Assembly (NCBI GenBank): GCA_902635965.1
Contig: CACPQA010000001.1
Span: 186,001-250,000 of the forward strand
Direction: 5' to 3'
Length of the DNA stretch: 64,000 nucleotides
From: an uncultured Bacteroidota bacterium
GTDB lineage: Bacteria; Bacteroidota; Bacteroidia; Flavobacteriales; Flavobacteriaceae
In this document: positions 232 through 3,054 of the stretch, piece by piece
Position numbering within the stretch: position 1 is the stretch's first letter
Layout: every line of letters starts with the position of its first letter
Program-made: the position numbers and the translations under genes
The notes under the pieces: generated by a model
Databases searched by the model: none
Told to the model about the DNA's origin: nothing
Seen by the model: only the letters and a program-made list of their open reading frames with translations

Positions 232-2172
232 ATGATATATAATGATTTAAGGTTACATGAATATTCTGTACTAATATATAGGATATTTCTTGCCCACATA
301 GCTTATGTTTTTTTAAGATTTTTATTTGTATTTTTTAATAACGACATAGTTCAAGTTTCAGACTTAGGAAATTTTTTATCTCTAAGTATGTTAGGATTAA
401 GATTTGATAGCTCTGCAATAGCTTACTCGAATTTATTTTTCATTTTTTTTTCTGTCCTTCCCTTATCATTTTTAAGGTTCAAGAAGCACCAATTTTTTTC
501 TACTTCGCTATACTTCATATCCAACAGTTTTTTTTTAATTCTAAACTTTATTGATTTTGCATATTATAGATTCAATTTAAATAGGATGATGGGAAATTTC
601 TTAGAATCAATTTCTAAAGAAAACAACAAACTAAGATTAATTTTTCATTTTTTATTTCAGTACTTAAACCTAGTCTTACTTTTTTTTCTTTTTTTATTTA
701 TTTGGATTGGTTTATATAAATTGGTCAAAGTAAAGGAAGAAAAAATTGAAAACAATAAAATTTATTACCTCAGTTCAATTTTTGGGATTCTTATTTCATC
801 TGCCTTAATCGTAATGATGGCTAGAGGAGGAGACTTTAGAAAAAGCACAAGACCAATTACACTTATAGATTCAATGGATAATTTATCAAAACCCGTTCAC
901 TCGGATGTGGTACTAAACACTTCATTTACAATTATTCGGACTTGGGGTAAAAACTCGTTTAAAAAGAGCAGTCGATTCAATGATTTTGAAGTAGCAAGTC
1001 AAGTAAAACCTATTAAAAATTATAATGAAAGAGAAGTAATCAAAAAACCCAACATAGTAATTTTTATAATTGAAAGTATGGGAAGAGAGTATTGGGGAGA
1101 GTTAAATAAAAATAGAAATATTAACAACTTTAAAAGTTTTACTCCATTTTTAGATTCGTTATCCAAGCATAGTTTGATATTTCCAAATGCATTTGCGACA
1201 AGTAGAAAGTCAATTCACGCTATGCCGTCTGTTCTTGCAGGTGTTCCGTCATTTGAAATAGCATATACTTCTTCATATTATTCTAGACAGAAATTAGAGT
1301 CATTGGTAAGTATTTCCAATGCTTTAGGTTATGATACTTCATTTTTGCATGGAGCAAAAAATGGTTCGATGGGATTTCAGGGTTTTGCAAATACCTTAGG
1401 ATATGGTAATTATTATGGACGAGATGAATTCAATAATGATGAAGAATACGATGGTTTTTGGGGAATTTGGGATGAACCTTTCCTCCAATTTTCAAAATCT
1501 ATTTTAGATAATAAAAACGAACCCTTTTTGGCAACTATTTTCACCTTGTCTTCTCATGAGCCCTATATAATTCCGGATAAATTTAAGGGTATATTTGACA
1601 ACGGATATCTTCCTATTCACAAATGTGTTGGATACACTGATTATTCAATAAGACAGTTTTTTAAAAGTATAGAAAAATCAAGTTGGTTTGAAAACACAGT
1701 TTTTATTTTTACTTCAGATCATACAAATCAGTCTTATTATAAGCATTATCAAACCACCGTAAACAGATTTGCTACTCCTTTACTTATTTACAAAAAAAAT
1801 AGTGATTTTAAAGGGGTTGATAACAGCTTAGCCAGCCACCTTGATATATATCCGACTGTAGCTGAATTGGTAGGATATAAAAAGCCTTTTAGAAGCTGGG
1901 GAAGGAGTTTGTTGTCTGGTAAAAATGAACCTCCATTTACAATTAATTATTTTGGAGGAGGTGCATATTTATCGATGGATGAAAACTTCATTTGTATTTA
2001 TGATGGTAATAAAGCAATTGGGTTTTACAATTTATCTGATTTGAATCTCGAGGAGAATCTAATTCAAAATAAAAATCAAAATATGCTGAGATTAGAAAAA
2101 AAAACAGGTTTATTTTTACAAGATTACTTTAATAGAATAATTGATAATAAGATGTATTATAATCCTAAGTAG
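232..2172 (+). CDS. LTA synthase family protein (membrane-anchored sulfatase-fold phosphoglycerol transferase)
   Basis: N-terminal TM helices followed by a sulfatase-fold domain: NIVIFIIESMGREYWG, TSRKSIHAMPSVLAGVPS, FTLSSHEPYIIP, FIFTSDHTN. Confidence 0.88.
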   Translation: MIYNDLRLHEYSVLIYRIFLAHIAYVFLRFLFVFFNNDIVQVSDLGNFLSLSMLGLRFDSSAIAYSNLFFIFFSVLPLSFLRFKKHQFFSTSLYFISNSFFLILNFIDFAYYRFNLNRMMGNFLESISKENNKLRLIFHFLFQYLNLVLLFFLFLFIWIGLYKLVKVKEEKIENNKIYYLSSIFGILISSALIVMMARGGDFRKSTRPITLIDSMDNLSKPVHSDVVLNTSFTIIRTWGKNSFKKSSRFNDFEVASQVKPIKNYNEREVIKKPNIVIFIIESMGREYWGELNKNRNINNFKSFTPFLDSLSKHSLIFPNAFATSRKSIHAMPSVLAGVPSFEIAYTSSYYSRQKLESLVSISNALGYDTSFLHGAKNGSMGFQGFANTLGYGNYYGRDEFNNDEEYDGFWGIWDEPFLQFSKSILDNKNEPFLATIFTLSSHEPYIIPDKFKGIFDNGYLPIHKCVGYTDYSIRQFFKSIEKSSWFENTVFIFTSDHTNQSYYKHYQTTVNRFATPLLIYKKNSDFKGVDNSLASHLDIYPTVAELVGYKKPFRSWGRSLLSGKNEPPFTINYFGGGAYLSMDENFICIYDGNKAIGFYNLSDLNLEENLIQNKNQNMLRLEKKTGLFLQDYFNRIIDNKMYYNPK

Positions 2173-3054
2173 ATGAGATTAAAAATTCATTTTATTATCA
2201 AAATTTCAAACTCAAAAATTGCTAAGAGAATTAAAGAGCAAGTTAGAATCAAATTTGATGAAAACAAGTATCAGGTAAAAATTAGTGAGTCAAGTTTTAA
2301 AGGAGAAACGAAAACATTAGCAAGGCAAGCCGTTCTTAACAAAACAGATTTGATTGTCGCATGTGGTGGAGATGGTACTATAAACGAAATTATAAACGAG
2401 ATTAAAGAGAAAGAATTTAAAATTGCAATAGTCCCAATAGGATCCGGGAACGGGATTGCAAGGCATTTTAATATTCCTTTAGATATTTCCAAATCACTAG
2501 ATTTAATTTTAAGACATAATTATACCTACGTAGATATAGGTAAAGTAAATGAATCTGTTTTTTTAGGAAACGTTGCTTTTGGGATAGGTGCCGATTTTAT
2601 TAAGAATTACCATAAAATTAAATATAAAGGATTAGTCGGTTATTTCTTAGCATTTATAAAAACAATTTTCAGCATAAAAGAAAAACAATTTATTATTGAT
2701 ATTGACGGTGAAAGAATCACTAGTTCTCCGTTAATTTTAATTGTGTCAAATACAAATCAACAAGGCTATAATTTCACAGTCACTCCAAAAGCAAAAACCG
2801 ATGATGGTATGTTAGATATGTTTATTGTTGAAAATATCTCATATCTTAAAAATATTATAAACATATTCAAAATTATTCTTGGTTTAAATTTTTCTCCTGG
2901 AGAAAGTATTTATAAAAAAATTGAAAATTTAAATATAACTCTACAAAAGCCAATTAAAAATATTCAAATAGATGGTGAGAATTTGAATGTAAATCGTGGT
3001 GTTTATAAAATTAAATCGGTTAAAAACACACTCCAACTTATTACTCCTAATTAA
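2173..3054 (+). CDS. Diacylglycerol/lipid kinase family protein (YegS/DgkB-like)
   Basis: LIVACGGDGTINEIINEI, PIGSGNGIARHF and DDGMLDMFIV motifs; ATG directly follows the upstream stop. Confidence 0.88.
   Translation: MRLKIHFIIKISNSKIAKRIKEQVRIKFDENKYQVKISESSFKGETKTLARQAVLNKTDLIVACGGDGTINEIINEIKEKEFKIAIVPIGSGNGIARHFNIPLDISKSLDLILRHNYTYVDIGKVNESVFLGNVAFGIGADFIKNYHKIKYKGLVGYFLAFIKTIFSIKEKQFIIDIDGERITSSPLILIVSNTNQQGYNFTVTPKAKTDDGMLDMFIVENISYLKNIINIFKIILGLNFSPGESIYKKIENLNITLQKPIKNIQIDGENLNVNRGVYKIKSVKNTLQLITPN

Follow-up and report, generated by a model that had tools for sequence, protein, structure and literature searches.

A putative module of an LtaS/OpgB-branch headgroup transferase and a DgkB-type lipid kinase in Flavobacteriaceae

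What role could an LtaS-like enzyme have in bacteria that apparently cannot produce phosphatidylglycerol (PG)? This question is raised by a gene pair located at the beginning of a 64,000-nucleotide stretch of DNA (the window; C1:186001-250000 of genome G000) from a flavobacterial genome of 1.77 Mb that is 85% complete. Answering it would reveal how marine bacteria decorate their envelope and would counsel caution in annotating LtaS-like proteins of this kind as LTA synthases or phosphoglycerol transferases. The first open reading frame (positions 232-2172, forward strand) starts with ATG, encodes 646 amino acids and ends with a TAG codon at 2170-2172. The second one (2173-3054, forward strand) encodes 293 amino acids and starts with the ATG codon that abuts this TAG. 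The resulting zero-gap TAG-ATG junction (2170-2175, forward strand) is consistent with translational coupling of both genes. A preliminary description of this DNA had reported the abutting frames and had quoted four motifs. The frames were found where it had placed them, as were ESMG (amino acids 281-284), RKSIHAM (325-331) and TSDHT (494-498) in the transferase and GGDGTINE (65-72) in the kinase.

The transferase belongs to the alkaline-phosphatase superfamily (PF00884, E=2.7e-39). Its best NCBIfam matches were LtaS followed by OpgB, both far under cut-off: it scored 59.6 bits against the LtaS equivalog NF053595 (cut-off 970 bits), and 39.4 and 52.6 bits against the OpgB equivalogs NF003000 (574 bits) and NF009027 (572 bits). 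A profile of 24 sequences of the window subfamily matched Fructobacillus LtaS with a probability of 98.9% (E 1e-17), E. coli OpgB with 98.1% and YejM with 85%, compared to an hhalign probability of 0.5% (E 0.12) for EptA. The solved structure closest to this profile was VP1736 of Vibrio parahaemolyticus (PDB 3lxq, E=1e-48), LtaS and LtaP structures came next, and no EptA or MCR chain was present among the best 60 solved-structure matches. Fold searches agreed with the sequence profiles, and VP1736 was again the closest to the transferase; they were given weak weight, as the models used, made from eight and six rows, were of low confidence (mean pLDDT 48.8 and 65.9). Long branches kept the positions of OpgB, EptA, YejM and LtaS from being resolved in the transferase tree, and for this reason the family placement rests on the profile comparisons. 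The LtaS-like nature of the protein, as described preliminarily, was thus borne out at the level of the LtaS/OpgB branch; clustering with phosphoethanolamine transferases, which would have spoken against it, was looked for and none was found.

The residues tell a similar story. The N-terminal membrane region (amino acids 13-200; 268-831, forward strand) has four hydrophobic peaks in the hydropathy analysis and, as modelled at low confidence, about five long helices, a picture consistent with the five-transmembrane layout of LtaS. All on the forward strand, E281 (1072-1074) aligns with the metal-ligand Glu255 of S. aureus LtaS, S327 (1210-1212) with the catalytic Thr300, serine replacing threonine, H442 (1555-1557) with His416, and D496-H497 (1717-1722) with the metal-site pair Asp475-His476. 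These residues and H373, the equivalent of LtaS His347, are invariant in the 24 sequences. H373 opens the segment HGAKNGSMGFQ (amino acids 373-383; 1348-1380, forward strand), which occupies the position of the headgroup-binding loop of LtaS, where the Fructobacillus enzyme has HGNNGSFWNR. The residues through which S. aureus LtaS contacts glycerol phosphate include His347, Asp349, Trp354, Arg356 and His416 (PMC4973235), and of the loop residues Asp349, Trp354 and Arg356 are lost in the window transferase. The argument that the loss of Trp354 and Arg356 would by itself rule out phosphoglycerol was dropped because equivalents are not apparent in the OpgB alignment either. Taken together, the kept catalytic residues, the lost contacts and the profile matches place the transferase in the LtaS/OpgB branch, but not demonstrably as an LtaS or an OpgB.

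The second product is a predicted DgkB/YegS-type lipid kinase with DAGK_cat and YegS_C domains (2173-3054, forward strand). It matched PF00781 with E=7.2e-27 and exceeded the cut-off of TIGR00147, the model for YegS/Rv2252/BmrU lipid kinases (129.1 versus 118.65 bits). The nucleotide-binding motif GGDGT is found at amino acids 65-69 (2365-2379, forward strand), and the D-G-E at 267-269 (2971-2979, forward strand) aligns with the DGE of S. aureus DgkB. GGDG and DGE are invariant in the 22 kinases that make up the kinase profile, and the T of GGDGT is nearly so. The best structure matches of this profile were an Enterococcus protein (4wer), S. aureus DgkB and Bacillus kinases, with E values from 1e-37 to 1e-41, and YegS was matched at 2e-27. 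The profile is not nearer to human sphingosine kinase 1 (E=1.4e-4) than to DgkB (1.5e-39), and the DgkB-like character proposed in the preliminary description agrees with all of these matches. In the family searches on which all genome-wide counts are based, the paired kinase is the single DAGK_cat gene found in the window's 85%-complete genome, where no DgkA was found. The DgkB-type solved relatives, together with the DgkA data given below, indirectly support diacylglycerol (DAG) as its substrate.

The conservation of the pairing was surveyed in 151 genomes of the window's family, which hold 23 kinases of the window's type (score of at least 130 bits). An LtaS-like gene adjoins 18 of these 23 kinases and, by listed coordinates, none of about 63 weaker paralogues among the matches listed; since the sampled genomes are related, the corresponding Fisher p of about 2e-14 overstates independence. 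The intergenic gaps range from -11 to +5 nt in the 16 measured pairs, while at L052 the start call is doubtful and at L060 the kinase is upstream at 127 nt. Two transferase subfamilies take part in the pairing, A (the window type) and B, with a VP1736-like loop (YGGDGYFDNM). Both are served by one kinase clade of 22 members (support 100/99), composed of the paired kinases and four solo kinases, within which there is a seven-member A subclade that includes the window. The same seven A-type pairs, with the kinase downstream, form one clade (SH-aLRT 99) in a transferase tree made with a quick method. In genome G067 the transferase is of the A type and the kinase, located upstream, is of the B type, apparently a separate linkage event. 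No neighbouring DAG kinase of either type accompanies 14 of the 23 window-type transferases of the family sample. Outside the family, A-type transferases and related kinases exist in the phylum sample (loci with 1.5 kb flanks), where none were adjacent, so the pairing is not Bacteroidota-wide. Adjacency in relatives, on which the preliminary description had made its proposal depend, is therefore kept in many genera of the family and was not seen beyond it in the phylum sample. The pairing exceeds chance and is recurrent and lineage-specific. We found no relevant report of it in Bacteroidota in the open-licence literature.

In three loci without a DgkB-type kinase (G001, G037 and G124), the gene directly upstream of the transferase, on the same strand, codes for DgkA (PF01219), whose fold is unrelated to that of the paired kinase. 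The transferases of G001 and G037 are of the A type and that of G124, separated from DgkA by 3 nt, is of the B type. G001 and G037 are sisters that keep the tpx-dgkA-ftsK order usual in the family, so the transferase gene seems to have been inserted there beside a pre-existing dgkA; G124 does not have this order. As read from the trees, there were apparently about five separate events that linked transferases with DAG kinases of two folds, and the genomes with such linkages measure 1.3 to 6.1 Mb. DgkA is present in 133 of the 151 family genomes but did not turn up in any of the six that carry a window-type pair (G000, G066, G020, G053, G082 and G100; completeness 66% to 99%), with a Fisher p of about 1e-6, or about 2e-4 when only genomes at least 90% complete are considered, kinship being ignored in both. 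Single absences are weak individually where completeness is 66-90%. Since DgkA is otherwise so common, the paired kinase looks like its replacement, and the most economical interpretation makes this DgkB-type enzyme the DAG kinase of the window-type lineages. Both the swap and the DgkA loss suggest that DAG is the intermediate which transferase and kinase share. A point against this is that DgkA-type enzymes can be undecaprenol kinases.

The two genes very probably form a transferase/DAG-recycling module that recurs across the family. The fuller reading, in which coupled headgroup transfer and DAG recycling involve phosphoethanolamine from phosphatidylethanolamine (PE) or phosphoglycerol from PG, is one that we consider likely. 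Its mechanism is read from the precedents of OpgB/DgkA and mcr-3-dgkA. The membrane-anchored transferase would take a phosphorylated headgroup from a phospholipid at the outer side of the inner membrane, carry it on Ser327 at the metal site formed by Glu281, Asp496 and His497, and hand it to an envelope acceptor, releasing DAG. On the cytosolic side, the DgkB-type kinase would phosphorylate this DAG to phosphatidic acid, which would re-enter phospholipid synthesis so that DAG does not build up. In the window's lineage the paired kinase would have assumed the role of DgkA, which is nearly universal otherwise. The recurrence of the pair together with the DgkA swap and the DgkA loss make coupled DAG recycling well supported by genomics. 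Weighing against the reading are the lost Trp354 and Arg356 contacts, the 14 window-type transferases with no DAG kinase next to them, and the pre-existing dgkA of G001 and G037. Of the self-contained module envisaged in the preliminary description, transfer and DAG recycling stand, on account of the conserved adjacency and of the swap and loss of DgkA, but the phosphoglycerol headgroup is not supported. If the reading is right, one family has wired headgroup transfer and DAG salvage together several times, with kinases of two unrelated folds, and lineages without DgkA can be assigned a likely DAG kinase.

By analogy, the pair is a variant of known couplings between transferases and DAG kinases, namely mcr-3-dgkA, OpgB/DgkA and LtaS/DgkB. 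In mcr-3-dgkA, a headgroup transferase gene is linked to that of a DAG kinase which recycles the released DAG (PMC7559476). The window pair shares with it the genetic linkage of an alkaline-phosphatase-superfamily headgroup transferase and a DAG kinase. Unlike mcr-3-dgkA, and unlike E. coli EptA with DgkA, its transferase is of the LtaS/OpgB branch and is not matched by EptA, and its kinase is of the soluble DgkB type rather than the membrane DgkA of mcr-3-dgkA. E. coli OpgB (MdoB) also releases DAG, which is salvaged by DgkA (PMC8027125), and it is, like the window transferase, an LtaS-like transferase of a Gram-negative bacterium. However, inspection of the opgB neighbours indicated that in E. 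coli this gene is not linked to dgkA, the donor is PG and the acceptor a periplasmic glucan, and the fold of DgkA differs from that of the window kinase. Firmicute LtaS with DgkB has the same transferase branch and the same kinase type, but LtaS polymerises glycerol phosphate from PG with the participation of the Trp354 and Arg356 contacts that the window transferase lost. VP1736, the closest structure by both profile and fold search, was deposited as an uncharacterized protein, and its loop YGGEANFDNM is nearer to that of subfamily B than to the HGAKNGSMGF of the window.

The identity of the headgroup depends on the donor lipid. PgsA (TIGR00560) scored over cut-off in only one of the 151 family genomes, and PgpA in none of the 10 genomes tested. 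G020 (99% complete) and G053 (90%), both pair-bearing, have a single CDP-alcohol phosphatidyltransferase each, with PssA as best match at 89.1 and 79.6 bits, under the model cut-off of 107. The window's genome has one PssA-like enzyme of this kind and a second one whose type is unclear. Many of these bacteria thus appear unable to make PG by the known route. The polar lipids of Bacteroides are mostly PE, and for aerobic Bacteroidetes it has been called unusual to have PG in large amounts (PMC5167729). That PgsA is nearly absent speaks for PE as the donor, and the PgsA and PssA data combined with the lipid literature lead us to give slightly less than an even chance to a phosphoethanolamine transferase that evolved within the LtaS/OpgB branch, takes its headgroup from PE and leaves DAG to be recycled by the coupled kinase. 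The loss of Trp354 and Arg356 fits this possibility, as does the finding that a single sulfatase-like cluster accounts for the remaining PF00884 matches of the window's genome. E. coli EptA, of the same superfamily, is a precedent for the use of PE as donor. Against it, the EptA profile match is only 0.5%, the absence of PgsA is an argument from silence, and we know of no phosphoethanolamine transferase that groups with the window subfamily. We tentatively propose, as a possibility somewhat doubtful in its full extent, that in Flavobacteriaceae members of the LtaS/OpgB branch switched donor from PG to PE or some other lipid and modify an envelope molecule specific to Bacteroidota, with DAG recycled by the coupled DgkB-type kinase that replaced DgkA.

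Phosphoglycerol taken from PG by a transferase of the LtaS/OpgB kind, followed by DAG recycling, was the transfer put forward in the preliminary description; we regard it as rather unlikely in view of PgsA in one of 151 genomes, PgpA in none of 10 and the PssA-like enzyme as the only one found in G020 and G053. What speaks for it is that EptA is unmatched and the profile relatives are LtaS, LtaP and OpgB, all of which, being the characterised close ones, use PG to our knowledge. Besides, phosphoglycerol-decorated lipids are found in Bacteroidota, in P. gingivalis (PMC10757044). A divergent CDP-alcohol phosphatidyltransferase relative of roughly 200 amino acids, present in some other family members, may function as a PG synthase, and in E. 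coli PE can be converted to PG by ClsB (PMC8027125); through this relative or a ClsB-like route, PG could still be formed.

That the substrate of the kinase is a sphingoid base, ceramide or other lipid, its link to the transferase being unrelated to DAG recycling, is improbable. There are precedents in bacteria: PG1348 of P. gingivalis is a dihydrosphingosine kinase in Bacteroidota (PMC9045371), and Caulobacter is reported to have a ceramide kinase that is evolutionarily distinct (PMC10331486). Nevertheless, DgkB-type proteins lead the solved-structure matches (E to 1e-41), sphingosine kinase 1 trailing far at 1.4e-4, and DgkA, of another fold, replaces the kinase beside the transferase. Both findings disfavour the sphingoid specificity that the preliminary description had recognised as a threat to its proposal. 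Furthermore, the sole strong serine-palmitoyltransferase-like enzyme found in the genome adjoins a cysteate synthase: a CapA-like gene for the latter (576.7 bits, cut-off 600) lies directly upstream of the serine-palmitoyltransferase-like gene at L198 (G000:C12, about 26-30 kb). This arrangement suggests that the window's organism makes a capnine-type sulfonolipid. In capnine, C1 carries a sulfonate and there is no C1 hydroxyl.

A neutral adjacency, in which a streamlined genome has two unrelated genes under one promoter and which would suit the small genome, the same-strand genes upstream and the 14 unaccompanied window-type transferases, is very improbable given about five apparently separate linkages, two kinase folds, genomes of 1.3 to 6.1 Mb and near-zero gaps.

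Several other arrangements were observed. Genes for a VWA-domain protein and an AAA/Mg-chelatase-like protein are immediately 5' of the pair on the same strand (L016:11614-14190, the end corresponding to window position 190) and are possibly co-transcribed with it in this genus only. We weighed whether they belong to the module and decided against it, as in the compared loci they accompany the pair only within the window's genus. The PF00884 sulfatase-like cluster (G000:C2:32088-55725) is probably for the use of sulfated polysaccharides. Several B-type pairs (L075-L077, L109 and L110) have next to them a response regulator with its histidine kinase, a PepSY-like protein, an RND-type pump or PAP2 phosphatases, surroundings that recall the modification of the envelope under PmrAB control. 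Directly 3' of the A-type transferase, four genomes carry a gene for a membrane-anchored DSP/PTP-type phosphatase (L055:8985-9554, L060:3550-4134, L061:6059-6628 and L063:11043-11609); in three of the four the transferase has no kinase as neighbour. Finally, a second DAGK_cat kinase family adjoins a gene for an APP1-type phosphatidate phosphatase on the opposite strand in seven of seven loci (L116-L122, seven genomes), a possible opposed kinase/phosphatase pair.
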